From contig JAAFJU010000031.1 in assembly GCA_013298165.1 (NCBI GenBank), forward strand, positions 1 to 37,849: a stretch of 37,849 nt of DNA, given 5' to 3'. The notes beneath the pieces are model-generated. The model had not been told where the DNA came from. It saw nothing but the letters and a program-made list of their open reading frames with translations, and ran no database searches. Each line of letters starts with the position of its first letter. Within the stretch, counting starts at the first letter, position 1. This DNA is from Synechococcales cyanobacterium bin31.maxbin.ball.101. Its GTDB lineage: Bacteria > Cyanobacteriota > Cyanobacteriia > Leptolyngbyales > Leptolyngbyaceae. The translations under genes and the position numbers were made by a program. Below, one piece after another: positions 1 to 23,824 of the stretch.

Positions 1-1
1 T

Positions 2-133
2 GCGACTTCGGGCTACAGTTCGCCCGGAGCCTACTCCTCCCGCATTGCCAACGTCTCCTCGATTCTGGTCTGCCACAAGCAGCAAACCCGGAACAGCCAA
101 AAGGCCCTCGGTCGTCTGAGTACCCTTCGCTAA
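2..133 (+). CDS. 3' end of an unidentified protein (5' truncated by window)
   Basis: An open frame runs from the window edge to a TAA at 131-133 and gives 43 residues ending KALGRLSTLR. All three + frames are open over this short stretch. This frame was chosen because its third codon positions are strongly C/G-rich, like the confident genes nearby. No domain is recognised. It would be convergent with the small gene at 149-433. The call is tentative, since the fragment is too short to exclude chance. Confidence 0.35.
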   Translation, partial: ATSGYSSPGAYSSRIANVSSILVCHKQQTRNSQKALGRLSTLR

Positions 134-148
134 GTTAGGACCACTAAA

Positions 149-433
149 TTAGTGGGGGCAGGGTGGGGCCGAAATCGATCGGTCCAGCCATGCCGTTGCC
201 TGCTGAAGGTGTGCTAACGCCTGTTCGCTATCCCCTTTCAGCAGATAGACTAACGCCACCGCTGCTTGCTCCTGGGCACGGGCTGGACGATTCGATTGAA
301 GACGGTGCCAGTCCTTATGGCCGATCGCCGATCGTTGAGCCAGCGCTTGAGCGAGTTCTAACGTTTCCAGACTAGGATCAACCAATGTCGCCGCCGATGG
401 GGTGGTGGATTGCATCATTGAGTTTAAAACCAT
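149..433 (-). CDS. DUF6439-like small cyanobacterial protein
   Basis: This small soluble protein of about 94 residues has the pattern LETLELAQALAQ, then KDWHRLQSNRPARAQEQAA, a helical ALVYLLKG segment, and a C-terminus AWLDRSISAPPCPH. That arrangement matches my memory of the cyanobacterial DUF6439 family, whose function is unknown. The helical repeat-like core (EQALAHLQQA) resembles a TPR fragment. Possible starts are GTG at 436, ATG at 433, and ATG at 418 or 415. The last two fit the usual family length better but have no better ribosome site. The gene is divergent from the coiled-coil gene starting at 454, leaving only about 20-40 bp for both promoters. The TAA lies inside a short palindrome at 141-155. 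Confidence 0.75.
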   Translation of the reverse strand: MVLNSMMQSTTPSAATLVDPSLETLELAQALAQRSAIGHKDWHRLQSNRPARAQEQAAVALVYLLKGDSEQALAHLQQATAWLDRSISAPPCPH

Positions 434-2872: not shown

Positions 2873-5404
2873 ATGAACGGCAAGACTTCTTCAGTTTTCC
2901 AGCGTTTGCTGGCCGCGACTCTACTGGTAAGTGGTATTACCGCCCTTGCTGCTCCAGCCTTCGCAGATGGAACTGCTGCTGGAACCTCGATCGATAACAC
3001 TGCGACGGCGACCTACGACAACCCCGACGATCCCACCAAGCCTTTTAACGCCACCTCCAACACCGTGAAAGTCACAGTGGCTGAAGTTGCGGGTATTACA
3101 GTGACGCCTCTGTCTACGATCGATGTCAACGGTGGGAACGTCTTGCCGAACGACATTGTGAACTATGAATTCAAAGTCACCAACGTCGGTAACGACACCA
3201 CTGAGTTCTTCATTCCTGGAACGCCAACGGTTGCAGGTCCTGGTGCGGCCACAGTCGTGCAAATCACTGGATATATTAAGCCCGATGGCACCCGCGTTGA
3301 CTTCCCTACAGCAGTGGCCGTTCCGGCAGGTACTACGAAGACCAGTGCAATTCCTGGATTGCCTGCAATTCCTGGTAGCCCAGTTGGTGTGATCCCCGCA
3401 GGATATGCGATAATCGTGAACGTCCCAACGACGATCAACAACTTGGCCGCGTCCGGTGCAAACGTAGACGTCCGCCTGGGTAACACAGGTGCCAACGACA
3501 ACCTCGCAGGCACTCAAAACCAACCGAACACCGCAACAACGGCAACCGATAAAGTTCGCACCGTAGACTACCTGAGTGAAACTGGAACGACCGCAGGTCC
3601 TGTGGCAGAAGAAAAAGAAGCTGCTGCCTTGCAAACTGTCAAAGTGGGTTCGCTATCCCAGGCATTGGCCACAGTTCTGAAAACCCGCACCAGCTACGTC
3701 CCTAACTCGGTGACGAGCTTGGCGGATGATGTCATTGGCTACGGCTTGGCCCTGAAGGTTGAATCCGCTGCGCCAGTCGGTAGCACCGGAATCACACCCG
3801 GTAAGCTGGTCGGAACTGCCATCAAGGTCGATGGCGCAACGGTCAACCGCGTCTTGGTCTCGGATGCCATTCCTGTACAGACTAAATTGACCGCAGCAGC
3901 GGATGTCACGGTGCCCAATACCAACTGGAAAGCGGTCTATACAACGGATGCCTTAACGGTTCCTGCGATCGCCGCAACCTGGACCAGCACCTTCACCGCC
4001 TCTGCAACTCGCATTGGTTACATCTATGACGCAACCGTCACCCCGTTAGCAGAAGGCGCTAACATCACAGGCTTCGGCTTCAAGGTCGTCACCAGTGGCG
4101 TTCCTGCGGCTTCGACGACGCCCGTCAACATCCTGAACATTGCCCAAGTCTTCGGACAAACCAAAGGCAACGAAGGTCCGACAGCACCCTTGGTGTACGA
4201 CGAATCTGGGGACCAAATGCCCAGCAACTTTAATGACGACGGCAGCACCAATACCTCGACGACGAGCTTGACGCCCGGTTCGCCCGTCGGCAACATTCCC
4301 ACAGGCAACCCCAACGCAACGAACGACGGGATTGACAACACGAATGACAACACGGGTAAAGGTCCCGGTGGTGAAGACAACGTCATCACGATCGCCCTTG
4401 AAGGGTCCATCTTGAATGGTCCGAAGGATGTTCCTGGTGCCGTGGGTCCTAGCGACAACAACAACGACTTCACCAACCGCAGCACACCTGTCGATCCCAA
4501 CACCCCTCCCGGTGGCACGATCGATCCAGCCGCTGTCAACTTCGTGAACAGTGTCAACAACCCCAGTGGCACAGCGACCTTGAGCAATGTCTTAATCGTC
4601 CCTGATACTGCCGCCTTTACTGCCGCTACAGGTGAAACCCTGCCGCCAGATAAGACGACGGTCACGCTGACCTATGGTGGCTCGACAGCTATCTATACCT
4701 TTGATGCAGCCCTTGGAAACTTTGTGTTTACCTCTGGTAATCCCATCACTGTCCCGGCTCTAGCACCGGGTCAAACGATCAACTACACCGTTTCCGTTGA
4801 CTTACCTGCTGGAACACCACTTTCGACCGATACGCTGAAAGGATTCTCAATTCCAATCTACGCTTTTGTCGATAAAGATGGCGATTCTCGTCCTGATGTC
4901 GATGGCACCGAGCCAACGCAAAACCGGACGATCGATCGGGTCTACACCGGATTCCTGCAACTCAAGAAGGAAGCACGAATCTTAGACAAAGATGGTGCAA
5001 CAGTTCTGGTTCCTTTCACCACAGACAGCGCAGCCTTGGCAGGTAAAGGTGCGAAGGATCGATTTATCGAATATCGCATCACCTACAAGAACATCTCGAT
5101 CGCACCAACGGGTACAGGCAACACCACTCTGGATGCCAAGAACGTTGCAGTGATTGAAGATGGCGTCAATGGTGGCAACTCTTGGGCTAAGGACACAGAT
5201 GCCAACAACATCATCGACACCAGCCACAAAATGGGTTCCGTCTCCGTGACCTACGGTGGTCCTGCAAGTGTGACCTACTCCCCAAGTGGTGAACAGACTG
5301 GAACCACGGCAGCCACTGACGTGACCAAGTATGTCCACAAACCGGGCGTGATCATCCAGCCTCAAGACGCTGGAACCTTCGTCTTCCGACGCAAGATCAA
5401 CTAG
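2873..5404 (+). CDS. Secreted DUF11-type surface protein (843 aa)
   Basis: A Sec signal peptide covers residues 1-31, with the predicted cut at APAFA/DG. The mature protein is rich in Thr, Asn, Asp, Gly and Pro and poor in Cys, as is typical of extracellular beta-sandwich proteins. A DUF11-like module (NDIVNYEFKVTNVGN) lies near residues 83-120. Another lies near 690-840 (GFLQLKKEARIL, then FIEYRITYKNIS). An Asp/Asn-rich, possibly calcium-binding stretch (NDGIDNTNDNTGKGPGGEDN) sits near 480-500. The protein ends with a basic/aromatic strand, TFVFRRKIN. There is no LPXTG or barrel anchor, so it is probably released or held by partner proteins. It is the first gene of the surface operon. The domain type is fairly secure, the role is not known. 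Confidence 0.85.
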   Translation: MNGKTSSVFQRLLAATLLVSGITALAAPAFADGTAAGTSIDNTATATYDNPDDPTKPFNATSNTVKVTVAEVAGITVTPLSTIDVNGGNVLPNDIVNYEFKVTNVGNDTTEFFIPGTPTVAGPGAATVVQITGYIKPDGTRVDFPTAVAVPAGTTKTSAIPGLPAIPGSPVGVIPAGYAIIVNVPTTINNLAASGANVDVRLGNTGANDNLAGTQNQPNTATTATDKVRTVDYLSETGTTAGPVAEEKEAAALQTVKVGSLSQALATVLKTRTSYVPNSVTSLADDVIGYGLALKVESAAPVGSTGITPGKLVGTAIKVDGATVNRVLVSDAIPVQTKLTAAADVTVPNTNWKAVYTTDALTVPAIAATWTSTFTASATRIGYIYDATVTPLAEGANITGFGFKVVTSGVPAASTTPVNILNIAQVFGQTKGNEGPTAPLVYDESGDQMPSNFNDDGSTNTSTTSLTPGSPVGNIPTGNPNATNDGIDNTNDNTGKGPGGEDNVITIALEGSILNGPKDVPGAVGPSDNNNDFTNRSTPVDPNTPPGGTIDPAAVNFVNSVNNPSGTATLSNVLIVPDTAAFTAATGETLPPDKTTVTLTYGGSTAIYTFDAALGNFVFTSGNPITVPALAPGQTINYTVSVDLPAGTPLSTDTLKGFSIPIYAFVDKDGDSRPDVDGTEPTQNRTIDRVYTGFLQLKKEARILDKDGATVLVPFTTDSAALAGKGAKDRFIEYRITYKNISIAPTGTGNTTLDAKNVAVIEDGVNGGNSWAKDTDANNIIDTSHKMGSVSVTYGGPASVTYSPSGEQTGTTAATDVTKYVHKPGVIIQPQDAGTFVFRRKIN

Positions 5405-6211: not shown

Positions 6212-7813
6212 ATGTCTTCTCCATTGCTGAAATCTCCATTACCTCGATCACGATCGCGATCTAAGACCTTCTCCATGATGACAGCGTTAGCGCTGTCTCC
6301 CGTGACGACCTTAGGACTCGTGACGTTATCAACGGTGTTTCTCGGCCTCTCTAACAGCGCGATCGCTCAGGACAAACCATCCTCCACAAGGGTTGATCTC
6401 TCCAACCAGGCCGAGTACTCCTATGGGGTGGAGCCACAGCCCGGATATTCTGACCCTCCTCTGGAATATCGCGGTAAGACAGCACGAATTGAAGAAAGCT
6501 TCGATCGCTTGATCGATCCATTGGGACGTGTGGTGGGTTGCGCGGGTGAAACGTTGCCTAGCTACAGTGGTTTTAGTGTGGCCTTCTACGATGCAGACCC
6601 CAGCGATCCAACGGGTGCCAGCATCGGTCGCCTCACGCCCATGACCCGCAGTGAATTCCCCGATATTCCCAATAATGGAATTTCGGTCGGCATCCAGCCC
6701 AACGTCGAAAATAATAATCCTTACGCCCTCACGGACGGAACACAAGGGGCGTATAACTTCCTCTTAGACCCGAAGAAAGGTCAACTAGATGTGGGTCGCG
6801 CCTACATTTTGGTGGTGAATACTCCACCAGGTTCAATTTACTCACCCCGCCGGATTCGCATTGTTATGGGTACGCGGGTCGGCAATAAAGTCGCCTACCA
6901 AGCAGTCTCTCTAGATGGCAAACCCCTCGCCTCGACGACGGGTCAATCCACCATTAACGGAACGATCGACATCAATGATGCTGAGACCACGGGTCTGAGC
7001 TTAGCGGTGTTTGATTTGGCCGCAGGCGTCTGTCAAGCTCAAGAGATTCAAATTATTAAATCAGGCGATCGAGCCAGCGCTTCGCCCGGTGACATTGCGA
7101 TTTATCGTTTATCGGTTCGCAACCTATCGAGTGCGCCTATTAAAGACTTAAACGTTACCGATACCCTTCCCGTTGGCTTTAAGTTTGTCGAAGGCTCAGC
7201 TCGGGCGGAATTCCTAGGGGCAAATCAGCCGATCGTCGCCTCCCTCACCGGAAACAACAGCGTCCTATTCACCCTGCCCAATGTCAACCTCCCCGCTGCG
7301 ACCAGCAGCCAAAACCGCCAAACCTTGAACATTGCCTACGGTGCGATGTTGACCCCTGATGCGGTCCGTGGAAACGGCATTAACCTGGCATCGGTGTCGG
7401 GATTGAGAACGGATAATAATCAACCTGTTAAGGATGGTCCTGCAACGCACAAGATGCGGATTACACCGGGAATCTTGGCGGACTGCGGCACGATCATTGG
7501 GCGCGTATTTGAAGACAAAAATTTCGATGGTGAACAGCAAAATAATGAACCCGGCATTCCAAACGCCGTGGTGATTTTGGATGATGGCAACCGAATTACG
7601 ACGGATGCTAACGGCTTATTCTCAGTTGCGAATGTGCAGCCGGGATATCGCAGTGGCGTGCTGGACTTCAGCAGTCTTCCCGGTTACACCCTAGCCCCCA
7701 ACCGGAAATTTAAGGAGCGCAATAGCCAATCGAGATTGGTGAATCTGGCTCCTAGTGGATTAGTGCGGATGAATTTTGCGGTCACACCCGCGTTCCAGGA
7801 GGCAGGGAAATGA
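6212..7813 (+). CDS. Exported DUF11 plus SdrD-like surface protein (533 aa)
   Basis: ATG 6212 was chosen over an upstream TTG at 6170. It gives a long Arg/Ser-rich signal peptide of about 52 residues cut at AIA/QD. Residues about 55-265 form a domain I do not recognise (VEPQPGYSDPPLEYRGK and further). A DUF11 module follows at about 275-400 (SASPGDIAIYRLSVRN, then VTDTLPVGFKFVEGSARAEF). The C-terminal domain at about 423-533 is SdrD/prealbumin-like: IIGRVFEDKNFDGEQQNNEP is the typical calcium-loop start and DDGNRITTDANGLFSVANV follows. The stop overlaps the next start (ATGA), and the Shine-Dalgarno for the barrel gene lies inside this gene. That implies translational coupling, so the two products probably work together. 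Confidence 0.85.
   Translation: MSSPLLKSPLPRSRSRSKTFSMMTALALSPVTTLGLVTLSTVFLGLSNSAIAQDKPSSTRVDLSNQAEYSYGVEPQPGYSDPPLEYRGKTARIEESFDRLIDPLGRVVGCAGETLPSYSGFSVAFYDADPSDPTGASIGRLTPMTRSEFPDIPNNGISVGIQPNVENNNPYALTDGTQGAYNFLLDPKKGQLDVGRAYILVVNTPPGSIYSPRRIRIVMGTRVGNKVAYQAVSLDGKPLASTTGQSTINGTIDINDAETTGLSLAVFDLAAGVCQAQEIQIIKSGDRASASPGDIAIYRLSVRNLSSAPIKDLNVTDTLPVGFKFVEGSARAEFLGANQPIVASLTGNNSVLFTLPNVNLPAATSSQNRQTLNIAYGAMLTPDAVRGNGINLASVSGLRTDNNQPVKDGPATHKMRITPGILADCGTIIGRVFEDKNFDGEQQNNEPGIPNAVVILDDGNRITTDANGLFSVANVQPGYRSGVLDFSSLPGYTLAPNRKFKERNSQSRLVNLAPSGLVRMNFAVTPAFQEAGK
7797..7802 (+). promoter_or_regulatory. Strong Shine-Dalgarno for the barrel gene
   Basis: AGGAGG lies 7 nt before ATG 7810, inside the last codons of the preceding gene. 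Most genes in this window lack such a site. Together with the ATGA stop/start overlap it points to coupled, efficient translation of the barrel protein. Confidence 0.8.
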
Positions 7814-13229: not shown

Positions 13230-16200
13230 ATGCCCGTGAAGCATTCGCTAAACGCCCCTGCGCCGAGATCCTTGCTTGCGCTTCTACGAAATAGTAACTC
13301 TAGACTCTTCTACTTCACACTCCTGACTGGACTATTGGGCTACACAGCGGGCTACTCAGCCGCACCTGCGTTAGCAGAAGGAAGTCGCACGATGTATCCG
13401 AATGGCGCATCTGGAAACCGGGCTAACCTTCACCAAGCCTCCACCTCACAATTGTTGGGGGGTAAATTAAAAGCACGGACACTCCTCAAGGTGTATGTCA
13501 ATGCAGGTGAATATATTAATGTGGGTTCTTCGGCAGTGGGTGTCGGCAGCGGTGACATTCAAATCTTTAATCCTGGGATTGTCACTGGCGCACTTGGACA
13601 AGAAACATTGCCAGCAACAGGCTCCTTTCAATGCTCTACTCAGCGGGCATCGATCGCTAACGCTACGATACGCGCCACAGTCGGTGTCATAAACTCTCGT
13701 CAAAAGGAGCTAGATGGTCCAGATACAATTACCAATGCCGTGACAGCGGTACGGGGCAATGCCATTTCAACAGGCTATGTTCCTTGTTACTATCAGGCTC
13801 CTCAGTCTGGCGTATATGATATTTATTTTGCACCGCCAGTCCCCTCAGATTCAACGGCAGCTAATAACACAACAGGAGAAGTCAGCCTCGCTAGCCCACT
13901 CAACTTCACAACAAGCCAGAGTAATACGGTCGCAGCCTGGGATGTGACGGTCCGCAATAGTTTGACTTCGACATTTAACGAAGATTCGCGGTTATTTGTT
14001 TACTATGCCTACATGCGACACTCTAATAATAGTCGTTATGCTAATTTCTCCTTGTATCCAGTCACCTTAGATGGCTATCAGTACCAGACGAATTTGAATG
14101 GAATGGATCCCAACTCTTGGGCTTCTTTTGGTAATCGTTCTGGATTCTTAGATTCGGATGGTGTGACACCGCTCTACCATGACATCCTTGGAAGTGATGA
14201 TTCTTTAACAACCATCACGGGTGGAGCTAGCATTCAGTTGCCCCAGTTCCCGATGTTTTTTAATCCTCCTAAGTCAACCATCGTATCTGCCCTAGGAATT
14301 CCGACTGCACCAATAAAGCCAGAAATCACGGCCTTTAGCTTTGCTGGATCAGTGGCGAGTAACAATAGTTTGGTCGGGGCGGGGGGAACCTTTACCTTTG
14401 CCGCAACGGTCGATCACTCCTATGAAATTGTGATTAGCCGTGATGGGACTGACTTTGACCCAACCAATATTAACAACCGCGTTCTTCGGGGTCTGAAGGC
14501 ATCGGGAACGAATACCGTGACTTGGAATGGTAAAGATAATAGCGGGATAGATTTTCCAGTAGGGACTAACTATAAATCCAAAATTGTCATTAGAAATGGG
14601 GAGTATCACTTCCCAATGGCTGATGTAGAAAATAGCTTGGCGGGTCCATCGATCACGATGCTCAATCCCCCTGGCGGAATTTGTCCTGGTAACAACTGTA
14701 GTGCGGCCTTCTATGACGATCGAGGCTATAAGCTGCTGAATGGAACGACGATCGGAACGGTCAATGTGACGCTACCAGGAGGCACTGCGCCCTCTATCAA
14801 TTACAGTGGTATTTCTGGATTCACCAGTACGGGCAGTCAGCGTGCATTTAGTAACAGTTTCGGCGACAGAAAGGGATTAGATATTTGGACCTATTTCCCA
14901 AGTGAAGCGGCCAATTTGGTGCTTAACGTTCTTCCCTTGGCTCCTGATTTAACAATTACAAAGACCCATACAGGAAACTTTTTCGCAGGGCAAGTGGGTG
15001 CAGCCTATACGATTACGGTGAAGAACGAGGGAACCTCCTCTACAACGGGAACCGTCTCTGTCGTAGATACCTTGCCCACGGGGTTGACAGCAACAGCGGC
15101 GACAGGACCGGGTTGGACTTGTACTCTGAATACGCCATCCGTGGGTAAAGTGACTTGCACAACCACAACCGCATTGGCAGCAGGGAGTAGCTATCCACCG
15201 ATCGTCTTGACGGTCAATGTCGCGGCCAATGCGCCGAGTAGTGTGATCAATAGTGTGACCACCTCAGTCCCGACGGGCGAACTCAATACGACTAACAATA
15301 CAGCGACCGATCCAACGACGATTAATCCATTGAGTATTGCTGGAACCGTCTTCAATGATGGAGATGGCAGCAAGCTCAAAAATGGCACTGAAGTCTTTAC
15401 CAATGCAGGCGGACTCAATGCAATATTGGTCAATAGCAGCAATTTAGTGGTCGCGACCACAACGATCGCCGCTGACGGGACATACAGCTTCAGCAATGTC
15501 CCGCCCAATGCAACCTACACCGTCCAAATCACCACAGCCACGGCCACGCTCAATGCTGCGCCCCCTGCAATGACACTTCCAGCTAATTGGGTAAGTACAG
15601 GTGAAAATCTCGGAGGGGCGATCGACGGGACAGTAGACAGCCAACAGAGTGTTTCAGTGACGACCACTAGTGTGACCGATCTGAACTTTGGGATTGAGCA
15701 ATTACCCGATACGACGAATTTAACATCCCCGTCCCAACTCAATCCGGGCGGGACCACAACTGTTCAAGTTCCCAGCTTGAACGGAACTGACCCCGAAGAC
15801 GGCCCATTGGGAAATGGGAAATCATTCCAAATTGTCACGTTACCGACCAATGGCACATTGACCTATAACGAAACAGCGATCGTCGCCGGACAGACCATTT
15901 CGAACTATGACCCAACTCTATTAAAGCTAGATCCTAACAATGGAGCCATCACGGTCACATTTACCTATGCATCTGTAGATGCAGCAGGGAAAGTTGATCC
16001 CAGTCCTGCCACCGTCAATATGCCGTTTACGCTGACGGCAGTGGCGAGTCCACCCGAACTGATTCTGCTCAAACGCATCACAAAAATCAATGGATTAACC
16101 ACGGGCAAGAAAGCTGACGGGACATCGATCGATCTAACCCTAGTCGTACCCCAACCCGATAATCTCGCAACCCTCCGAGATGAATCGGGCGATGCAAGCA

Positions 16201-16706
16201 ATCCTGGCTGGATGATCAACTATCCCAAAGGCGCGATCGATGGTGGCATCATCAAATCTGGAGATCAGATTGAATATGCCATTTACTTTCTCTCCTCAGG
16301 TGGTCAACCCGTCACCAATGCCAACTTCTGTGATTGGGTTCCGAAAAACACCGTGTTTGAACCCGATTCCTATGGCGTCGGCAAGGGTATTGAATTGGCG
16401 ATCGGTTCTATTGTCACCGCCTTAACCAATATCCCAGATTACAATCCGACTGCCATTGCCCCCTTTCTAGCCTCGATCGATCGCGGAATGTTTTTAAGTC
16501 CGGGATCGATCGCGCTCACAACCTATCCTGATGGCACGACCTTCAAGTTAAATTGCATGGGTACAGCGGGAACAAACGGTGCTGTTGTCGTCAATCTCGT
16601 CAACAACAATCTCGCCGCCCCCAACAACCAGCTTCCCCATAGCACCGGAAGCGCAACTCCTGGCAACTCCTATGGATTTGTGAAGTTTAGGGCCAAAGCG
16701 AAATAG
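13230..16706 (+). CDS. Large secreted DUF11/SdrD-like surface protein (1158 aa)
   Basis: The signal peptide runs to about residue 49 (PALA/EG). The N-terminal domain starts SRTMYPNGASGNRANL and continues RTLLKVYVNAGEYINVGSSA, with a GYVPCYYQAP segment, to about 340. A FlgD-like Ig domain lies at about 380-465 (GTNTVTWNGKDNSGIDFPVG). A DUF11 domain lies at about 570-700 (APDLTITKTHTGNFFAGQVG). An SdrD-like domain lies at about 702-830 (IAGTVFNDGDGSKLKNGTEV), followed by a cadherin-like segment to about 940. The last 218 residues (PELILLKRITKING to YGFVKFRAKAK) are a module shared with the gene at 17150. Gene 13230 is the last gene before a strong terminator, 87 bp after the beta-helix gene. 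It is probably a major surface-exposed product; ligand and function are unknown. Confidence 0.85.
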   Translation: MPVKHSLNAPAPRSLLALLRNSNSRLFYFTLLTGLLGYTAGYSAAPALAEGSRTMYPNGASGNRANLHQASTSQLLGGKLKARTLLKVYVNAGEYINVGSSAVGVGSGDIQIFNPGIVTGALGQETLPATGSFQCSTQRASIANATIRATVGVINSRQKELDGPDTITNAVTAVRGNAISTGYVPCYYQAPQSGVYDIYFAPPVPSDSTAANNTTGEVSLASPLNFTTSQSNTVAAWDVTVRNSLTSTFNEDSRLFVYYAYMRHSNNSRYANFSLYPVTLDGYQYQTNLNGMDPNSWASFGNRSGFLDSDGVTPLYHDILGSDDSLTTITGGASIQLPQFPMFFNPPKSTIVSALGIPTAPIKPEITAFSFAGSVASNNSLVGAGGTFTFAATVDHSYEIVISRDGTDFDPTNINNRVLRGLKASGTNTVTWNGKDNSGIDFPVGTNYKSKIVIRNGEYHFPMADVENSLAGPSITMLNPPGGICPGNNCSAAFYDDRGYKLLNGTTIGTVNVTLPGGTAPSINYSGISGFTSTGSQRAFSNSFGDRKGLDIWTYFPSEAANLVLNVLPLAPDLTITKTHTGNFFAGQVGAAYTITVKNEGTSSTTGTVSVVDTLPTGLTATAATGPGWTCTLNTPSVGKVTCTTTTALAAGSSYPPIVLTVNVAANAPSSVINSVTTSVPTGELNTTNNTATDPTTINPLSIAGTVFNDGDGSKLKNGTEVFTNAGGLNAILVNSSNLVVATTTIAADGTYSFSNVPPNATYTVQITTATATLNAAPPAMTLPANWVSTGENLGGAIDGTVDSQQSVSVTTTSVTDLNFGIEQLPDTTNLTSPSQLNPGGTTTVQVPSLNGTDPEDGPLGNGKSFQIVTLPTNGTLTYNETAIVAGQTISNYDPTLLKLDPNNGAITVTFTYASVDAAGKVDPSPATVNMPFTLTAVASPPELILLKRITKINGLTTGKKADGTSIDLTLVVPQPDNLATLRDESGDASNPGWMINYPKGAIDGGIIKSGDQIEYAIYFLSSGGQPVTNANFCDWVPKNTVFEPDSYGVGKGIELAIGSIVTALTNIPDYNPTAIAPFLASIDRGMFLSPGSIALTTYPDGTTFKLNCMGTAGTNGAVVVNLVNNNLAAPNNQLPHSTGSATPGNSYGFVKFRAKAK

Positions 16707-16746
16707 GTTCTAAACAAATTCAAATTTAATTTTCAAGGTTCTTCGC

Positions 16747-16780
16747 CGATCGCTTCTACTTTAAGAGGCGATCGTTTTTT
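16747..16780 (+). terminator. Intrinsic terminator ending the surface operon
   Basis: CGATCGC (16747-16753) pairs with GCGATCG (16768-16774). The stem extends by a G-U and an A-U pair, and six Ts follow (16775-16780). The arms use the genome's common CGATCG octamer. It lies 41 bp after the stop of the sixth surface gene and separates it from the paralogue at 17150. Confidence 0.85.
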
Positions 16781-17149
16781 ATGGCATTTTTATGGCGTTA
16801 AGTCAGGCGTTAATCGCTCGGCTCCCGTCATATTTGTGACATCCATGGTTTTAATCATTCCCACCTCTTGCACAATAGTCAACAGTAAGACTTTGAAAAT
16901 CAACTCGCACCTAAAAATACCACCATTTAGCGATTGCTAAGTAGTAAGCCATGCATTACAGCTCAAGCAACATCCTTTAGGAAAAGATATTTAGTGGATA
17001 GATGTCTCTTAGCACAGGTGCTGTGGGTAAGCTGAATCAGGCAGCATCCATATCAAATCGATCATTTGAATTCTGAATAGGTTGACTGTCTATATCCTGA
17101 TTTGGGTTGCTCTTGTTTCTCAGTGCTTCATCCCCTCTACCTCTCTCCT
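16781..17149 (+). promoter_or_regulatory. Upstream region of the second large SdrD-like gene
   Basis: These 369 bp have no credible coding frame. The region must hold the promoter of the gene at 17150, because a terminator lies just before it. No -35/-10 pair at a convincing spacing was found and no riboswitch or tRNA was seen. Confidence 0.45.
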
Positions 17150-20100
17150 ATGAAAAGTCACTTTAATCACCATTCTCAATCTGTGCATTCTTATTGGCTG
17201 AAGTCTCTCTTCAGTTCAGTCAATCGGACTTCGATCAGATTGGCAGGGACGATCGGATTGTTGGGGACGATCGTTCCTATGTCTCAAGCTCAGGTACCTA
17301 TTTCTGGATTAGGGAGTTCCTATCAAATGGGAACAACGAGGACGGTCATGACCACAGGGGCATCACCAGCAGGGACATATGCGGGAAGTTCAAATCTACC
17401 GCTGACCCTAAACTTCGGAACGACTACGGCAAACGATCGTTACATTCAGACATTTGATACGGGTACAGGGGCAACGCTAAAACGCTATAACTTTGGCGGA
17501 CTAGTGAGTAGTATTTATATTCGCCGCAACGCAGTGAACTTTCCAGGCACGAATCGTCAACTTGGATTCTTTGAACGATCAAGCCCAACCAATATAATTT
17601 CCTCATATTCCGCAGATATGGAGAGCATCTTACGAAGCCAAACGATTAACCGAGGGACAGACAATACCTTCGCGAATCAGGGCAATGCTGCTGGAAACAA
17701 TAACAATATCGAGCGAATTGATTTCGTTAACACCAGCGGATTAGCTGCACCCACTGATCCGACGCAGATTAATGACATTGGATTTCTGATTTTGGAGCGC
17801 GGCGGAAACGATCCAATCAAAGTTGCAGCCATCACCTCGATCGACGGAACGGGAAAACCAACTGGATATGGACCCATTGTGAGCCAGACGTCTTCTCAGT
17901 GGGGAGACAGCGGCAGCTCGCTACAATATGCGGTGATGCGGAAAGACAGCACAGATGCAGATTGGCGTCCTTCCGATAGCAATACTCAAAAGATTACTGG
18001 AATTTACTTTTCGTTCGGTTCTTTAGGCGTTACAGCCGGACAAACAATCTATGGATACTCTATTATCCCAGCAGATGTGACAGCAACCAGTGGCCCTGGC
18101 TTACTCGATTGGCTACAATACCCCACCAGTAGTGGAGATACCGGAGCGACAGGACTTGACCTGATGGCGGGTGGTGGAGTCTTTGTGACCCACACCATTT
18201 CAGGGACTGTCTTTAGCGACCCCAATGGGAGTAAAGTCCAAGACCTTCCGGCTGAGGTAGGTCCGACTGCGGGAATTGATACCCTTAAGGCTGTTCTACT
18301 GGATTCGGCTGGGAAAGTACTGCAAGTAGTAGCAGTTAACACCAATGGAACCTATAAGTTTTCAGGTGTCGCAACGCCAGCGACAGGTTCGCCCTATACG
18401 GTGCTAGTGACAACGACGGCCCCTGCACTGAGCGCGACAACTGTCACTATGACGTTACCCCCAGGATTTGTGAGTACGGGGGAAAACAAGGGCAATCAGC
18501 CAGATGCAGCGATCGACACCCGTGTGACGGTCAACGCATCAGATTTTACGACTGTTATCGGTCAACCTCTACTGACGGAAGCAGTTAAGATCAATTTCGG
18601 AATTGAGAAAGCACCCATCGCGACGACGACAGCCCCCTCAAGTCAAGCCAATCCTGGGGGCACCACGTCTGTGGCTGTTCCCCCTGTGTTGTTCAATACC
18701 TCATCTGACCCTGATGGCACTGTTGATAAATATCGAATTACGACATTTCCGACCAGTGCGACCAGTTTTACAATTACGCAGGGCGGTGTGACCACGACTT
18801 ACACAAATGCAACCTTCCCCTCCACAGGATTGATCATTTTACCTACGGAACTCAGTACGCTGACCGTCGATCCGATCGATGGTGTCGTAGATGTTTCCAT
18901 TCCCTTTAAAGCGATCGACAACGCTGGCCAAGAATCGCTTAATACGGCAAATGCAATTTTGAAATTTACAGTTGCATTGCCTTCTGTCTCCGGAACGGTC
19001 TTTAATGATGTCAGTGGTAATAAACTGCAAGATGGGACAGAAGCGATCGTTAACGGAACAACGTTAGGACTCAAAGCGGTTCTCGTCAATAGCAGCAATC
19101 AAGTCGTCGCGACCACAACGGTCTCATCCACCGGAACCTATAGCTTTACGAATGTGGCGGCTGGAGCTTATACGGTTCTGCTGACGACCAATACTCCGGT
19201 CGGGACAACACCCCCTGCGATCGACCTTCCCCCCAATTGGGTCACAACAGGTGAAAACTTGAATGGCACTGTCGAAATCCCCCCTGCGACCCCCGACAGT
19301 AAAATTGAAGTTACCGTTGCGGCTGCGAATATCACAAATTTAAACTTCGGAATAGAGCAATTGCCAACCCCGATCGGCGCAACCACAGCGTCGCAAGTCA
19401 ACCCCACCGGAACAATCTCCGTCAGCGTTCCCACGCAGCTCTTTACAGGCTCGACCGATCCCGACGGTGGAACGGTTGCCAAATATCGCATTACCGCGCT
19501 GCCCACGACGGCGACCAGCATTACCGTGACGCAAGGTGGTGTGACAACGACCTATACCAGCGCCAATTTCCCCAGCACAGGACTGGTGATTTTAGCAACA
19601 GAGTTAACGACGCTCAAAGTTGATCCGATCGATGGTGCAGTAGATGTCAAACTTCCCTTTACGGCGATCGATAACGCAGGCAAAGAATCGACCGCGACGG
19701 CCGATGCGATCGTACCCTTCGGTGTTTCTCTCGTCTCGGTTTCCGGAACGGTCTTTGATGATGGCAACGGAGATAAAATTCAGGGTGGAACAGAAGCGAT
19801 CGTCGATGGTCAAACATTAGGATTAAAAGCAGTTCTGGTTAGCAACGGTCAAGTGATTGCAACCGCAGCGGTTTCAAATACAGGCACCTACACCTTTAAT
19901 GGTGTGGCACCGGGTAACTACACCGTCCTAATCACGACCAATACACCCGTCGGAACAACCGTTCCAGCGATCGACCTTCCCAACAATTGGATTACCACAG
20001 GTGAAAACCTGGGGGGCACGGTTGAAAATACACCGAATGGCCAACAAGCGATCACGGTTGCCTCTACGTCAATCACAGGTGTGAACTTCGGGATGGAGCA

Positions 20101-21103
20101 GTTGCCCACCGCGATCGGTGCCACTGCTAACACTCAACCGAATCCCCGAAATGCAGTGAGCGTCGATGTTCCCCCAGCGTTATTCAATACGTCTAAGGAT
20201 CTCGATGGAACGGTGGATCAATATCGGATTACCAGTTTCCCCAGCAATGTCACCAGCATTACGATTGATGGCATCGTTTATACCCCTGTGGCAGGTCCTG
20301 GAACGATCGCATTCCCATCCGGTGGCGTCACAATTCCTGCGGCCAAACTCAATACCATTAAGGTTGATCCAAACGTTGATGGTGCGGTGACGGTCTCGAT
20401 TCCATTTACGGTGATTGATAACTTCGGGAAGGAATCCCAAAATACGGCCAATGCGATCGTGCCCTTCACCGCAGGCAATACTCCAGAACTGATCCTGCTG
20501 AAACGCATCACCAAAATCAATGGCACCCCATTCGGGAAACCGTTGACGGGAAATACACTCATTGACCTGAACCAGATTGTGGCCCAGCCCGACAATCCCG
20601 CCACCCCGCGTGATGAATCCGGTGATGCCAGCAATCCTAAATGGCCAGCCAACTATCCGAAGGGAGCGATCGATGCAGGTGCGGTGAAGTCCGGGGATTT
20701 GGTGGAATATACGATTTACTTCCTGTCGTCTGGAAGCGATCCAGTGAAGAATGCTAATTTCTGCGACTGGGTTCCTAAAAACACCAGTTTTGTTCCCGAT
20801 GCCTATGGGTTAGGTCGCGGCATTCAATTGGCGATCGGGTCTATTCTGACCACCTTTACCAATGTTCCCGACGGCGATCGGGGCGTATTTTACAACCCTG
20901 GTGCAATCCCACCTGCCACCTATCCCAACAGCACAACCTACAAGCTCAACTGTATGACACCCATGGGTGTTGACGGTGCGGTAGTGGTTAACTTGGTCAA
21001 TAACAGCCTGACTGCCCCCGAAAACGAACTCACGAATGCCACTGCTGCCGGAACGCCCGGTAACTCCTATGGCTTTGTGCGGTTTGTGAGTAAGGTGAAA
21101 TAA
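17150..21103 (+). CDS. Large secreted repeat protein, SdrD/cadherin-like (1317 aa)
   Basis: ATG 17150 was chosen over an upstream TTG at 17102. It gives a His/Ser-rich signal peptide of about 47 residues cut at SQA/QV. Residues about 48-345 form an N-terminal domain different from that of the paralogue at 13230. Three composite units follow, at about 350-611, 612-863 and 864-1110. Each has an SdrD-like part (SGTVFNDVSGNKLQDGTEA) and a cadherin-like part (VDPIDGVVDVSIPFKAIDN). The final 207 residues (PELILLKRITKINGTPFGKP to YGFVRFVSKVK) match the end of the protein at 13230, including two conserved Cys (NFCDWVPKNT and KLNCM). It has its own upstream region, so it may be regulated apart from the six-gene operon. 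It probably extends as a multidomain stalk or adhesin. Confidence 0.85.
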   Translation: MKSHFNHHSQSVHSYWLKSLFSSVNRTSIRLAGTIGLLGTIVPMSQAQVPISGLGSSYQMGTTRTVMTTGASPAGTYAGSSNLPLTLNFGTTTANDRYIQTFDTGTGATLKRYNFGGLVSSIYIRRNAVNFPGTNRQLGFFERSSPTNIISSYSADMESILRSQTINRGTDNTFANQGNAAGNNNNIERIDFVNTSGLAAPTDPTQINDIGFLILERGGNDPIKVAAITSIDGTGKPTGYGPIVSQTSSQWGDSGSSLQYAVMRKDSTDADWRPSDSNTQKITGIYFSFGSLGVTAGQTIYGYSIIPADVTATSGPGLLDWLQYPTSSGDTGATGLDLMAGGGVFVTHTISGTVFSDPNGSKVQDLPAEVGPTAGIDTLKAVLLDSAGKVLQVVAVNTNGTYKFSGVATPATGSPYTVLVTTTAPALSATTVTMTLPPGFVSTGENKGNQPDAAIDTRVTVNASDFTTVIGQPLLTEAVKINFGIEKAPIATTTAPSSQANPGGTTSVAVPPVLFNTSSDPDGTVDKYRITTFPTSATSFTITQGGVTTTYTNATFPSTGLIILPTELSTLTVDPIDGVVDVSIPFKAIDNAGQESLNTANAILKFTVALPSVSGTVFNDVSGNKLQDGTEAIVNGTTLGLKAVLVNSSNQVVATTTVSSTGTYSFTNVAAGAYTVLLTTNTPVGTTPPAIDLPPNWVTTGENLNGTVEIPPATPDSKIEVTVAAANITNLNFGIEQLPTPIGATTASQVNPTGTISVSVPTQLFTGSTDPDGGTVAKYRITALPTTATSITVTQGGVTTTYTSANFPSTGLVILATELTTLKVDPIDGAVDVKLPFTAIDNAGKESTATADAIVPFGVSLVSVSGTVFDDGNGDKIQGGTEAIVDGQTLGLKAVLVSNGQVIATAAVSNTGTYTFNGVAPGNYTVLITTNTPVGTTVPAIDLPNNWITTGENLGGTVENTPNGQQAITVASTSITGVNFGMEQLPTAIGATANTQPNPRNAVSVDVPPALFNTSKDLDGTVDQYRITSFPSNVTSITIDGIVYTPVAGPGTIAFPSGGVTIPAAKLNTIKVDPNVDGAVTVSIPFTVIDNFGKESQNTANAIVPFTAGNTPELILLKRITKINGTPFGKPLTGNTLIDLNQIVAQPDNPATPRDESGDASNPKWPANYPKGAIDAGAVKSGDLVEYTIYFLSSGSDPVKNANFCDWVPKNTSFVPDAYGLGRGIQLAIGSILTTFTNVPDGDRGVFYNPGAIPPATYPNSTTYKLNCMTPMGVDGAVVVNLVNNSLTAPENELTNATAAGTPGNSYGFVRFVSKVK
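18199..20482 (+). repeat. Three composite 250-260-residue repeats inside the surface gene
   Basis: Units begin near 18199, 18985 and 19741, each with codons for SGTVF. Each ends with a segment like DPIDGAVDVKLPFTAIDNAG. DNA similarity is high in the units at 18985 and 19741 (for example GATCCGATCGATGGTG near 18871 and 19623). This suggests internal duplication and gives material for recombination-driven length change. Confidence 0.75.
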
Positions 21104-21112
21104 GTCGGCATC

Positions 21113-21142
21113 GAGGAGGTTCTACTTTAAAAGAACCTCCTC
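21113..21142. terminator. Convergent hairpin between the surface gene and S9 peptidase
   Basis: GAGGAGGTTCT (21113-21123) pairs with AGAACCTCCTC (21132-21142) around an 8-nt loop, a perfect 11-bp stem. It covers the last codons and stop of the - strand peptidase gene. It has no T-run on either side, so classical terminator activity is uncertain, but its place between convergent genes supports a 3'-end role. Confidence 0.6.
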
Positions 21143-23095
21143 AATGAATTGGATCGTGGTGTAAAACTCATAATCCACGTTCTTCTTCTTAGCAAAGCCA
21201 TGGCCTTCATCATTGGCCATCAAATACCAAACCGGAATGCCATTTTGTTGAACGGTTTTGACGATTTGTTCGGCTTCGTTGAGGGGGACGCGGGGATCGT
21301 TTTTCCCATGGATGACGAAGAGCGGTTTTGTAATGCGGCTGGCGTTGGTGAGCGGGGAAATGCGGGTGAGGAATTCGCGCATTTTGGGTTCGCGTTCGTC
21401 ACCATATTCCACCCGGCGCAAATCACGCCTGTAGCCTTCGGTGCGCTCTAGAAAGGAGACAAAGTTAGAAATACCAACAATATCGATCGCACCCCGAATT
21501 CGATCGCCATAGGTCACTGCCGCCGCCAAGGACATATAGCCACCGTAGCTACCGCCTGTAACGAGAATCCGATCGCTATCCAAATCCGGTTGTTGCTTAA
21601 TCCAATCAAGCAATGCGCCAATGTCTTTAACCGAGTCTTCGCGCTTGAAGCCATTGTCTAAGGTTAGGAATGTTTTGCCATAGCCAATGGAGCCACGGAC
21701 ATTGGGGAAGATCATGGCCACCCCCATTTCATTGAGAATGTAATTCCGTCGGCCTAAGAAGTAGGGTCGGGATTGTCCTTCAGGTCCGCCATGAATGTCA
21801 ATCATGACTGGGCGTTTGCCGGGGAATTTACCTGCGATCGGACGGTACAGCAAGCCTGAAATCGTGAGTTTATCAAAACTCGGCCATTTAATCAGTTCGG
21901 CATTGCTAAACCGATCGGTCGCCAAACCGCCCGTTTCACTTGCGGTCCAGCGGGTCAGCGCTTGGGTTTTCAGGGCGATGGAATAGACATCGGCGGTTTG
22001 GGTGGCGCTTAGGAAGGTGAATCCGAGTTCGGGATTATTGGCATCATCTTTGCGCCAATTCACGCCGAGAATGACGCCTGTGGGCAGTTTGGGTAGTTTG
22101 ATCTCCTGACGAGTTTTACTATCCAAAACCCGCAATACGCCGACTCCTGCTTCATTCGTGACGATCGCCAGATATTTACCATCGGGGGATTGATCCACAT
22201 CTTCCACATCCCAGGGAATGTCACTGGTTACGTAACTAATTTGATTGCTTTTGAGATCAACGTAGGATAGCCGTGAGAATTCCGAATCCCGATCGCTCAC
22301 CCAATAAATGCCGTTTCCATCTTTGCTATAAAAAGCACTGCTATAGGCAATCTTTGGAGCGTCTTTTATGGGTTCAGGGGTGACGCGAGTTTTGTTGCCT
22401 GTTGCAATGTCAATGCGCCAAAGATTGCTTTCATTAGCGGATAGGTATTCGATCGCGAGAAGGCTACGATCGTCCGGTGCCCAATCCAGCACAGACCATC
22501 CCCCACCCAGGTTTTGAGCAATGAGCCGATCGTTGCCAGGGCGATCGGGATCCATGATATAGAAATCATTATCTTTCCCGGTTCGTCGGGTGGAACTGTA
22601 GGCAACGCGATTGGTTTTATTAGCCCAGACACCGAGACTGTTGCGGGATTTTCCGTCGGTTAGCAGCGTTGTCGTTCCGGTTGCTAAATCATAGCGATAG
22701 GTTTGATTAAATTCATTGCCGCCGATGTCTTTACTGAAAAGAAAGTATTTGCCCCCGATCGGGGCATAACTACCACTACCGACCCGTTCTGGGAAAAAGG
22801 TCAATTGTTTCCGCATCCCCAAGGGCATCGTCACCTGATGCACCTGAGCCACATCGCCAAAGCGTGTCGAAATCAGCATTTCCCGTTTGGTCGGATGCCA
22901 ACTGTTGAGGCTAGCCGATCGGAAGTTGGTGTAGCGGTTGACGCGATCGACTAGGCTCTGGGGGACGCTGGGAATCCCTTGAATGGTTAGGTTTTCGCCA
23001 GGAGCGAAGATGGGTTCAGCGGCAAAGGCTGAATGGGAAATGCTAAGAGCTAACGTTGCGATTGCGAGGGACTTGATCAACATGATGTCGGGCAT
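21122..23095 (-). CDS. Exported S9-family serine peptidase (prolyl oligopeptidase/acylaminoacyl type)
   Basis: The 657-residue protein has a signal peptide (KSLAIATLALSISHSAFA/AE), so it should act in the periplasm or outside. Residues about 60-400 form a beta-propeller with TolB/WD-like blades (IYWVSDRDSEFSRLSYVDL; DVDQSPDGKYLAIVTNEAG). The C-terminal 250 residues are the alpha/beta-hydrolase domain: DIHGGPEGQ oxyanion region, nucleophile in GGSYGG (Ser about 515), Asp in HGKNDPRVP (about 598) and His in NDEGHGF (about 631). The triad is complete. It would cleave short peptides. Starts ATG 23095 and ATG 23083 both leave a good signal peptide. The upstream Uma2 gene stops 3 bp before it, so the two may be cotranscribed. 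Confidence 0.93.
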   Translation of the reverse strand: MPDIMLIKSLAIATLALSISHSAFAAEPIFAPGENLTIQGIPSVPQSLVDRVNRYTNFRSASLNSWHPTKREMLISTRFGDVAQVHQVTMPLGMRKQLTFFPERVGSGSYAPIGGKYFLFSKDIGGNEFNQTYRYDLATGTTTLLTDGKSRNSLGVWANKTNRVAYSSTRRTGKDNDFYIMDPDRPGNDRLIAQNLGGGWSVLDWAPDDRSLLAIEYLSANESNLWRIDIATGNKTRVTPEPIKDAPKIAYSSAFYSKDGNGIYWVSDRDSEFSRLSYVDLKSNQISYVTSDIPWDVEDVDQSPDGKYLAIVTNEAGVGVLRVLDSKTRQEIKLPKLPTGVILGVNWRKDDANNPELGFTFLSATQTADVYSIALKTQALTRWTASETGGLATDRFSNAELIKWPSFDKLTISGLLYRPIAGKFPGKRPVMIDIHGGPEGQSRPYFLGRRNYILNEMGVAMIFPNVRGSIGYGKTFLTLDNGFKREDSVKDIGALLDWIKQQPDLDSDRILVTGGSYGGYMSLAAAVTYGDRIRGAIDIVGISNFVSFLERTEGYRRDLRRVEYGDEREPKMREFLTRISPLTNASRITKPLFVIHGKNDPRVPLNEAEQIVKTVQQNGIPVWYLMANDEGHGFAKKKNVDYEFYTTIQFIEEVLLK

Positions 23096-23098
23096 TCA

Positions 23099-23824
23099 TT
23101 AGTGGGATTGAGCTTGGAATTCGGTGACGCGATCGATCGAGACACCAGAAATACTTGAGACTTGTTCGATAGACATGCCCGATCGTAATAAATTAACGAC
23201 AATCTGCTGAACCTGCTGCTCTGCTTGTCGAACTCGCTCTTGCGCCTGTTGCTTTTCAGCTTCTAGCTCAACGGATGTAAGAAATTTCTGACCGTCGGGA
23301 CGATAGAGTTCGAGTTCGCCTTGATTCAGCTCAAATCGAATCTGCATTCTGGGGCTGATCCAGCCTTCCATTTCTGGAATCGCTACGAGCCGATCGTTCT
23401 GCCGAATCCATCCTTTCAGACGAAATCGGTCTGGATCGTAACTATAATATTCTTCTACACCGTGGGTTTCATAAAAGACCCGTTTCTCTTCCATTTCCGG
23501 TGCAAAGTTGCTAGGAGACAGAATTTCAAAGGCGATTTGGGGTGCAATGCCACCTTCTTTCCATTGTTGATACGAACCCCGATCGCCCTTGGGTCTGCCG
23601 AATACGATCATGATATCGGGGGCAAGACGAGTTTTGTTGTCCCCTTCGATCGGATACCACAACAGATCACCCGCAATGAATACATTCATGTCAGTTGCGT
23701 AGAAAATCTCGAAGTTCTCTTTAATCAGAACAATAAATCGAAACTGTCTCGTATTGTCAGACATGGGATTACCGTCGCAGTCGGGATATTCAATTTCAAT
23801 CTCTGGTGGGGTGATGAGCGGCAT
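23099..23824 (-). CDS. Uma2-family (DUF820) PD-(D/E)xK protein, copy A
   Basis: The 241-residue protein contains the family pattern RLAPDIMIVFGRPKGDRGSY, then IAFEILSPSN with EMEEKRVFYETHGVEEYYSYD. These carry the conserved Asp (70), Glu (100) and Lys (114) of the restriction-endonuclease-like fold. A Gln-rich coiled-coil segment follows SVELEA, and the end (RSGMSIEQVSSISGVSIDRV) is a small helical motif seen in many family members. The family is greatly expanded in cyanobacteria and its real substrate is unknown. It is a near-identical tandem duplicate of the gene at 23871-24569, with eight changes over the first 189 residues and a different coiled-coil length. There is no partner antitoxin or methylase nearby. 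Confidence 0.9.
   Translation of the reverse strand: MPLITPPEIEIEYPDCDGNPMSDNTRQFRFIVLIKENFEIFYATDMNVFIAGDLLWYPIEGDNKTRLAPDIMIVFGRPKGDRGSYQQWKEGGIAPQIAFEILSPSNFAPEMEEKRVFYETHGVEEYYSYDPDRFRLKGWIRQNDRLVAIPEMEGWISPRMQIRFELNQGELELYRPDGQKFLTSVELEAEKQQAQERVRQAEQQVQQIVVNLLRSGMSIEQVSSISGVSIDRVTEFQAQSH

Follow-up and report, generated by a model that had tools for sequence, protein, structure and literature searches.

How large surface proteins with different bodies come to carry the same C-terminus, and what that C-terminus does for them, is the question raised by a stretch of 37,849 nucleotides (nt) from Synechococcales cyanobacterium bin31.maxbin.ball.101 (GenBank assembly GCA_013298165.1, contig JAAFJU010000031.1), the whole of which is called the window here. 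Two genes in it, downstream of one for an outer-membrane barrel protein, encode proteins A and B, which end in a common domain referred to below as the module. An earlier reading of this DNA from its letters alone (the sequence-only reading) had taken the constant end for a sorting or anchoring signal. What can be called solid is that the module is a constant C-terminal DUF11-type domain that tracks a barrel gene cluster. A more tentative proposal, and the one preferred here, is that it forms the acceptor half of a split DUF11 (CLIPPER) immunoglobulin (Ig)-like domain, which would dock its surface protein by donor-strand complementation.

A constant C-terminal domain and its barrel gene

The C-terminal module shared by A and B is real, not a product of chance. 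Their last 211 residues are 67% identical, for which the earlier wording, “nearly the same”, is too strong, and the sharing extends further than had been said: BLASTP aligns the two proteins over 495 columns at 48% identity (E 1e-123), a span that includes an SdrD_B repeat and one further domain. The N-termini do differ, the first ~680 residues of A being without a significant match in B. Among 58 related genomes, protein searches detected the module in 43. Over the retrieved loci, 94 distinct cyanobacterial modules score at least 84 bits and make up the set used here; the next match below that cut, a diverged module of 51 bits in genome G046, is also C-terminal and is not counted. For family searches 33 rows were aligned, leaving out the frameshifted L020 and L007, which is from the same record as L010.

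Whether the module is always C-terminal was a question left by the sequence-only reading. No internal position was found: the distance from module end to stop codon is 0 residues in 84 of the 94, 1 in seven, 3 in one and 4 in two. The KR of the first strand and the CD of the core are each present in all 94, and the two conserved cysteines noticed earlier hold up as well, with exactly two in 93 modules. The exception is L020 (G008:C2:847391-847937), which is out of frame in its last third. This frame shift makes it the sole broken module of the set, and it has a match at identical coordinates in a plasmid record of Kovacikia minuta. In front of the module the bodies vary: BLAST sorts 34 full-length module proteins into 13 N-terminal groups, of which single-member groups may hide distant kin. 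By a crude test the module proteins have signal-peptide-like starts, and their chains end, 0–4 residues after the domain, in a basic/aromatic strand. The ends TFVFRRKIN and SAFYQVRVR, pointed out earlier in two further proteins of the cluster (the DUF7925 protein and the small DUF11 protein; Table 1), are present too, and similar ends recur in orthologues.

Co-occurrence with the barrel gene was counted in two samples. The first, 386 genomes drawn evenly across the phylum and searched with a limit of E ≤ 1e-4, gave a module match in 49, a barrel match in 46 and both in 44. Module genomes G064, G086, G099, G180 and G307 were dropped, the sole match in each being short, DUF11-like and of 25–35 bits, as were the diverged or broken barrel matches of G088 (269 bits, 30% identity), G099 (122 bits) and G329 (31 bits, with stops). 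After filtering, 44 genomes have the module, 43 the barrel, 43 both and 342 neither; in one genus (g50), three genomes have both genes and two are listed with neither. The lone module genome without a barrel, G375, has its module gene at the very end of a contig and therefore carries no weight as an exception. The second sample, 58 relatives that share several genomes with the first, has 44 module genomes after removal of G036 (34 bits) and 45 barrel genomes; the extra barrel-only genome, G003, is 69% complete. The expectation that genomes with the module also carry the barrel is thus borne out in 43 of 44 and 44 of 44 cases, respectively. DUF7925 (Pfam model) was found in 38 of the 386 genomes, all of them among the 43 with a barrel, and is absent from the other five.

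Module genes are mostly neighbours of the barrel gene. In the first sample 56 of 64, and in the second 66 of 85, lie no more than 15 kb from it, and nearly all of these (55 and 65) follow it on the same strand. Copies that stand on large contigs, well away from any barrel, occur in G017, G025, G026, G141, G222 and G381, all with a barrel elsewhere; the remaining unlinked copies (five and 16) are on contigs without a barrel match in those searches. One such contig, C205 of G000, holds a barrel fragment, and the lectin-type module gene that shares the contig was withdrawn as an unlinked copy; it remains counted as one in the linkage figures for the 386 genomes. G000 has at least two further barrel paralogues, on C4 (5809-8535) and C205 (7110-8492), the latter a contig-end fragment beside the lectin-like module protein (L006, L108). 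Full scoring of 12 genomes found one to three strong module copies in 11 and four in one, mostly adjoining the barrel, and added none to those already known. With one to four strong copies per genome, mostly by the barrel, the module does not serve many clients as a general secretion tag, and that candidate was rejected.

DUF11 kinship and the last strand

At E ≤ 1, all 33 aligned modules match TIGR01451 (DUF11 repeat; best 3e-10), and 26 match PF01345 (best 2e-5). The comparison with the curated TIGR01451 cut-off of 24 bits covers the window module, which scores 21.3. Recurrent Pfam and NCBIfam matches of the rows are to DUF11 and its kin DUF7619 and DUF7927, and nothing else. Aligned by hhalign with 98 internal DUF11 domains, the module gives a probability of 94.5 and an E of 8e-8 in one comparison, confined to a 44-column core. 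An AlphaFold2 model of the module is Ig-like (predicted local distance difference test, pLDDT, 85.6). VIA-align ranks sortase-pilin Ig domains at the top (Z 7.5, root-mean-square deviation (rmsd) 2.5, 111 residues), and 9IFR, a DUF11/CLIPPER crystal structure, aligns with Z 6.4 and rmsd 2.1 over 88 residues (1..218 on 20..109); a Z under 8 can reflect a common arrangement, and these values alone are weak as a sign of a CnaA-like Ig fold. Foldseek with the module returned no match at E ≤ 0.001, and no relative of the module or of DUF11 turned up among PDB sequences searched with the module, the barrel and an internal DUF11 domain.

DUF11 domains can hold a Lys-Asn isopeptide bond formed with the help of an Asp (Lys-715, Asn-806 and Asp-748 in 9IFR; PMC12617251). 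The module resembles them in its core (GD..EYTI...CD.vP), its Ig-like strands, its first-strand Lys and its Asp before P (PMC12617251; 9IFR). It differs in some 45 extra residues between the first and second strands (in the window copy), in a long insert before its end, in having no isopeptide Asn that could be found, and in being always C-terminal, whereas DUF11 is typically repeated mid-protein. In sequence terms it is a DUF11 (CLIPPER) Ig-like domain of variant form, with two residues of the isopeptide centre, the Lys and the Asp, conserved; alignment and spacing would equate these with Lys-715 and Asp-748 of 9IFR. The conserved cysteine pair probably forms a disulfide, as is reported alongside isopeptide bonds in 29.7% of CLIPPER domains (PMC12617251).

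This anatomy bears on the proposed signal. Anchoring by a constant C-terminus on variable bodies fares well, given the invariably terminal position, the 13 N-terminal groups and the association with the barrel. A short sorting signal of a known kind does not: the module is a folded DUF11-type domain of ~160–220 residues with few copies, the module proteins lack a short hydrophobic C-terminal tail with a motif of the PEP-CTERM or LPXTG type, and neither these nor another known sorting-signal family is among the Pfam and NCBIfam matches of the 33 rows. A docking domain fits better.

Outside the modules, the C-terminal DUF11 domains of these loci are mostly incomplete. The reference profile, built from the 98 internal DUF11 domains of the same loci, has 118 columns with the Asn at column 101. 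Internal matches reach the Asn column in 201 of 234 cases, C-terminal ones in two of 15; 12 of the 15 stop at columns 86–92, near the chain end. Ten of the 15 belong to small DUF11 proteins, and the other five are ends from Acinetobacter, Deinococcus and Pacificitalea; in the small DUF11 protein of the window the match stops at column 90 of 118, at the chain end. By these sequence statistics, such domains mostly stop after strand F, without the Asn-bearing last strand. In agreement, strand F of DUF11 is a better match than strand G for the final strand of the chain in 14 of 18 small DUF11 proteins and 15 of 17 DUF7925 proteins, whose C-terminus we likewise infer to lack the last strand. The same is found in 74 of the 94 modules, against 54 of 94 other open reading frames (ORFs). 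An Asn motif of the N[TSQIE]A type is found within the last 45 residues of just one of the 94. Aligned with 9IFR, module residue 8 falls on the isopeptide Lys-715 and the module ends near 797, before Asn-806, if the chain is numbered from its expression tag, as it appears to be. The module itself likely lacks its last strand, without this being settled.

A strand of that kind is found at the start of other proteins of the cluster. Just after the signal peptide, DUF7925 proteins begin AGT.I.NTATATY and DUF11-SdrD_B proteins begin with forms of I.NQATYTYT; the consensus of the last DUF11 strand is TNTATV, and these donor-like starts look like it, Asn included. N-termini were scored with a matrix from 82 internal last strands, with a threshold at the 99th percentile of the scores of 96 further ORFs from these loci. 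Above it are 14 of 17 DUF7925 and 10 of 22 DUF11-SdrD_B proteins, compared with none of 12 beta-helix, two of 23 barrel, three of 18 small DUF11 and four of 33 module proteins. In three of the 14 passing DUF7925 proteins it is a repeat of the motif, farther along the chain, that scores best. Two DUF7925 frames and one DUF11-SdrD frame apparently do not include the true start.

Acceptor tails were also joined to donors and scored on a profile of strands F and G, a gain being counted when it exceeded 2 bits over the better part; the pairs are not independent. Such gains were seen in 39% of module pairs, 54% of small DUF11 pairs (median gain 2.75) and 21% of DUF7925 pairs, and in 2–4% of pairs with shuffled tails, 2% with unrelated ones and 2% with barrel, beta-helix or SdrD tails. 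Scored against the whole domain, a donor adds a median of 5.7 bits to small DUF11 proteins and −1.2 to complete internal domains. Overall, it is likely from these comparisons that the donor-like N-termini and the truncated DUF11 ends of the cluster belong together.

Proposed docking and its rivals

On the split-domain proposal, the N-terminal strand of a partner would fill the groove of the module, or that of the DUF7925 C-terminus. The direction of the chain would follow from the distribution of the two parts. A and B carry the module but lack a donor, DUF7925 proteins have a donor and a DUF11-like end, and DUF11-SdrD_B proteins have a donor and no such end, so that the proposed order is head - module : (DUF7925)n : DUF11-SdrD_B - barrel. 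The head would point outward, DUF7925 would be an optional shaft, and DUF11-SdrD_B with the barrel would form the base in the outer membrane. DUF11-SdrD_B is tied to the barrel by a 4-base gene overlap in the window (7810 versus 7813) and by fusion of the two elsewhere. Where DUF7925 is absent (five of 43 barrel genomes, G051 for example), the module would dock directly on the base. The two cysteines would form a disulfide that stabilises the open domain, and a Lys-Asn isopeptide bond, formed by Lys 8 and Asp 95 with the Asn of the donor, could make the joint covalent. The last step leads to a bolder proposal, considered unlikely on the comparisons made here: a self-locking adhesin, in which strand insertion together with a spontaneous intermolecular isopeptide bond would give a covalent tip-shaft-base fibre that needs no sortase, usher or classical chaperone, in the Gram-negative envelopes of Cyanobacteriota, Deinococcota and Pseudomonadota.

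Among seven loci examined outside Cyanobacteriota, three fit the docking scheme. The barrel matches 24 plasmid records (two cyanobacterial, the rest from Proteobacteria and one Deinococcus), mostly over partial length, and the module query matches only the two cyanobacterial ones. In the Picosynechococcus group, NIES-970 has the cluster on a plasmid. Deinococcus ficus has the same gene order and two DUF11 proteins that begin QITNTATATYG (score 13.4) and QITNVASAEAR (10.6). The first of these also ends in a truncated domain by the profile, as do a 162-residue protein and the beta-helix protein by eye. A single chain, judged by annotation, match and eye, combines the DUF11-SdrD part with the barrel in Acinetobacter haemolyticus and in Pacificitalea; it begins with IIQNIAYASYQ (7.5) in the former and VIRNIAEGSYF (4.5, below threshold) in the latter, and neighbouring proteins end in truncated domains.

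Two side observations concern heads at these loci. The beta-helix protein of D. ficus (L138 14771-18532) has a DUF11-like end with two Cys, so the beta-helix may be a head there. The head of an Acinetobacter protein (L136 19287-22223, IQRSFLNLGFE) resembles those of cyanobacterial module proteins at loci L069 and L079 (IQRSFLNPSFE), suggesting from sequence likeness an exchange of heads between phyla.

A number of results weigh against docking on a missing strand. The association with the barrel, taken by itself, is weak evidence, because module and barrel genes are largely an operon and linkage alone would yield it. Profile matches within the modules stop at least 20 residues before the chain end (in the rows listed), in the insert; two of 63 extend to the Asn column, and several get as far as columns 85–99, with 35–64 residues still to come. 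Likeness to strand F is higher in the stretch that precedes the last strand (median 3.4) than in the last strand itself (−7.2), so that the latter could be a strand G without the Asn, and a forced global hhalign alignment also places it on G. As for the donors, 12 of 22 DUF11-SdrD N-termini are under the 99% threshold, though nearly all are alike by eye; one of the ten that pass is out of register, and the background ORFs are mechanical, some perhaps not genes. The median gain in the tail test, with its non-independent pairs, is −0.3 for modules and −1.1 for DUF7925. In the whole-domain test a donor adds nothing to the module (median −0.8 bits), because of the insert, or to DUF7925 (−0.5). At the remaining loci, Roseivivax, Loktanella and Sinorhizobium have one giant DUF11 chain instead, and the Vibrio locus has a single large DUF11 frame, its start scoring 7.0. 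In the alphaproteobacterial relatives (L139 1-14637, L142 1-14382, L141) the giant chain, ~6,100 residues long in Roseivivax and Loktanella, precedes a separate barrel gene; perhaps it is an unsplit form of the same system.

Several of these points would suit a simpler history, in which the module is just the last stalk domain: a complete DUF11-derived Ig domain with a disulfide, terminal by descent and without a docking partner. Its DUF11 kinship and the confident Ig-like model of the module on its own are what would be expected, tandem DUF11 stalks are common among the proteins of these clusters, and the F-like stretch before the end leaves room for a strand G after it. A stalk domain of this sort would not have to sit within 0–4 residues of the stop codon in all 94 cases. 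It also leaves aside the loss of the last strand from most other C-terminal DUF11 domains of these clusters, the orphan last strands at the N-termini of partners, and a tail test above its controls. Such a complete domain is accordingly considered somewhat unlikely, and docking by donor strand is preferred to it.

Recognition of the module by the barrel as a sorting domain, with the barrel carrying the protein across the outer membrane and leaving attachment perhaps to other means, is improbable. The model for it is the type IX secretion system (T9SS), whose C-terminal domains, found as a constant fold on many bodies, are recognised by the large outer-membrane barrel SprA and its partners. The signal-peptide-like starts, the constant terminal fold on many bodies, the near-perfect co-occurrence with a large barrel and the gene order of barrel then module protein would all suit a comparable role, and SprA entries are among the Foldseek matches of the barrel. 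These have rmsd above 35, with a weak barrel model behind them, and no T9SS C-terminal domain model is among the Pfam and NCBIfam matches of the 33 rows at E ≤ 1. The module also differs from T9SS domains in its few copies per genome, few of them unlinked to a barrel, and a sorting role would leave the ends of the small DUF11 and DUF7925 proteins and the donor-like N-termini unexplained. Sorting and docking need not be exclusive; in chaperone-usher pili one domain serves both.

Least probable of all is that the donor-like N-termini fold back in their own proteins, by self-complementation in cis or as a hairpin of the first domain, and that the module has another ligand, for instance cell-wall polysaccharide or lipopolysaccharide: DUF7925 proteins do have both a donor-like start and a DUF11-like end, with a second strand-like stretch (TSNTVTVTV) after the donor that could pair with it, but A and B have no donor of their own, DUF11-SdrD_B has one without such an end, and in G051, without a DUF7925 match, a short DUF11-SdrD protein nevertheless opens with a strong donor-like segment.

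The cluster and its known counterparts

The genes of the window cluster are all on the plus strand, in one run from the DUF7925 gene to that of protein B (Table 1).

Table 1. Coordinates of the gene cluster and of the features discussed in the text.
Feature	Position (nt)	Strand	Remarks
DUF7925 protein, 843 aa	2873..5404	+	Donor-like mature N-terminus and DUF11-like C-terminal domain; proposed shaft subunit
Donor-like segment SIDNTATATYD, residues 39-49 of DUF7925 protein	2987..3019	+	
C-terminal domain of DUF7925 protein	4946..5401	+	Ends GTFVFRRKIN; second proposed acceptor
Small DUF11 protein, 181 aa	5525..6070	+	Lys and Asp of isopeptide centre absent
DUF11-SdrD_B protein, 547 aa	6170..7813	+	Donor-like mature N-terminus; proposed base
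Donor-like segment DLSNQAEYSYG, residues 76-86 of DUF11-SdrD_B protein	6395..6427	+	
Outer-membrane barrel protein, 1184 aa	7810..11364	+	Two Ig-like domains, then ~30 long antiparallel strands (weak model)
Right-handed beta-helix protein, 592 aa	11364..13142	+	
Protein A, 1158 aa	13230..16706	+	Signal peptide, variable head, DUF11, SdrD_B-like repeat, module; start not donor-like; proposed tip adhesin
Protein B, 1333 aa	17102..21103 (likely start ATG 17150)	+	Head, three SdrD_B repeats, module; proposed tip adhesin
C-terminal module of protein A, residues 941-1158	16050..16703	+	DUF11-like; proposed acceptor, possibly without last strand
C-terminal module of protein B, residues 1127-1333	20480..21100	+	
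Lys 8 of module A (KR of KRIT)	16071..16073	+	Conserved in 94/94; proposed isopeptide Lys
Cys94-Asp95 of module A	16329..16334	+	CD kept in 94/94; first Cys and proposed catalytic Asp
Cys169 of module A	16554..16556	+	Second Cys; proposed disulfide partner of Cys94

The barrel protein is the obvious candidate for the route by which the chains would cross the outer membrane. Its model is weak (pLDDT 64.7; predicted template modelling score, pTM, 0.37). The N-terminal part matches Ig domains of beta-galactosidase in a PDB sequence search, and the model has matches to porins, SlpA, SprA and LptD, which do not decide the class of barrel. Barrel matches in G119, G094, G395, G009 and G023, and a 3' fragment in G011, have one in-frame stop each, from assembly errors or decay. 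A relative of the beta-helix protein is present in nine of 20 clusters retrieved. The small DUF11 protein (with orthologues in L069-L088) stops after strand F yet has no isopeptide Lys; the Asp, too, is missing by eye from 15 of 18 rows. One guess is that it is a transient, periplasmic, chaperone-like partner for donor strands. Downstream of the cluster, on the opposite strand, is what we take to be a prolyl-oligopeptidase-like gene (21122-23095); the same gene, with one extra gene intervening, is found downstream in opposite orientation in L007 (12010-13995). Beyond it, 23099-23824 and 23871-24569 are near-identical adjoining genes of one family, apparently a recent tandem duplication.

One parallel to the docking scheme is the chaperone-usher pilus. 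Its tip adhesin FimH has a variable binding head and a C-terminal Ig domain without the last strand, which is filled by the N-terminal strand of the next subunit. The module system shares the variable head, the barrel in the cluster and a C-terminal Ig domain that likely, though not provenly, lacks its last strand. It differs in that DUF11 is not a pilin domain, and in that Lys and Asp are kept and the joint could be covalent. It also differs in family matches: at E ≤ 0.01 in Pfam, no usher family is among the matches of the barrel or of 22 aligned barrel sequences, and no PapD-like chaperone among those of seven cluster proteins scanned. Another is SpyTag/SpyCatcher, a split Ig domain engineered from a Gram-positive adhesin, with the Lys and the catalytic acid on one part and, on the other, a strand that supplies the partner residue; that pair is man-made, while the proposed module and donor would be a natural one.

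Archaeal threads of Sulfolobus are head-to-tail fibres that combine a donor strand with an intersubunit isopeptide bond, from Asn57 to the N-terminal amino group two subunits on (PMC9715654). No DUF11 is seen in the accessible part of that account, and these cells have no outer membrane. GhlA of Litorilinea, a grappling-hook surface filament, is a single chain with 49 DUF11 domains (PMC13319060); it is alike as a long DUF11 surface filament, and the text available on it mentions neither a split domain nor a donor strand. DUF11 as an isopeptide domain, fibres with donor strand and isopeptide bond in archaea, and DUF11 filaments are therefore in print already. Neither a split DUF11 domain nor a link between DUF11 and a donor strand was found in the open-access papers searched, which omit most subscription journals, and what they offer on cyanobacterial exoproteomes gave no lead. 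A surface location would fit with two SdrD B-like proteins in Spirulina vesicles (PMC11635480) and with a cyanobacterial DUF11 protein predicted to be outer-membrane (PMC13297417), if such proteins carry the module. A role as cargo of type 11 secretion was considered and set aside, the paper on DUF11 and secretion being, in its accessible part, mostly about DUF1194, which contains the same text string.

How large adhesins are fixed to the outer membrane of diderm bacteria is often not understood, and DUF11 proteins are widespread surface proteins. If the split DUF11 domain is true, it would give a rule for which protein docks on which and assign roles within a conserved, unnamed gene cluster. 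It would also predict a natural counterpart of SpyTag/SpyCatcher.

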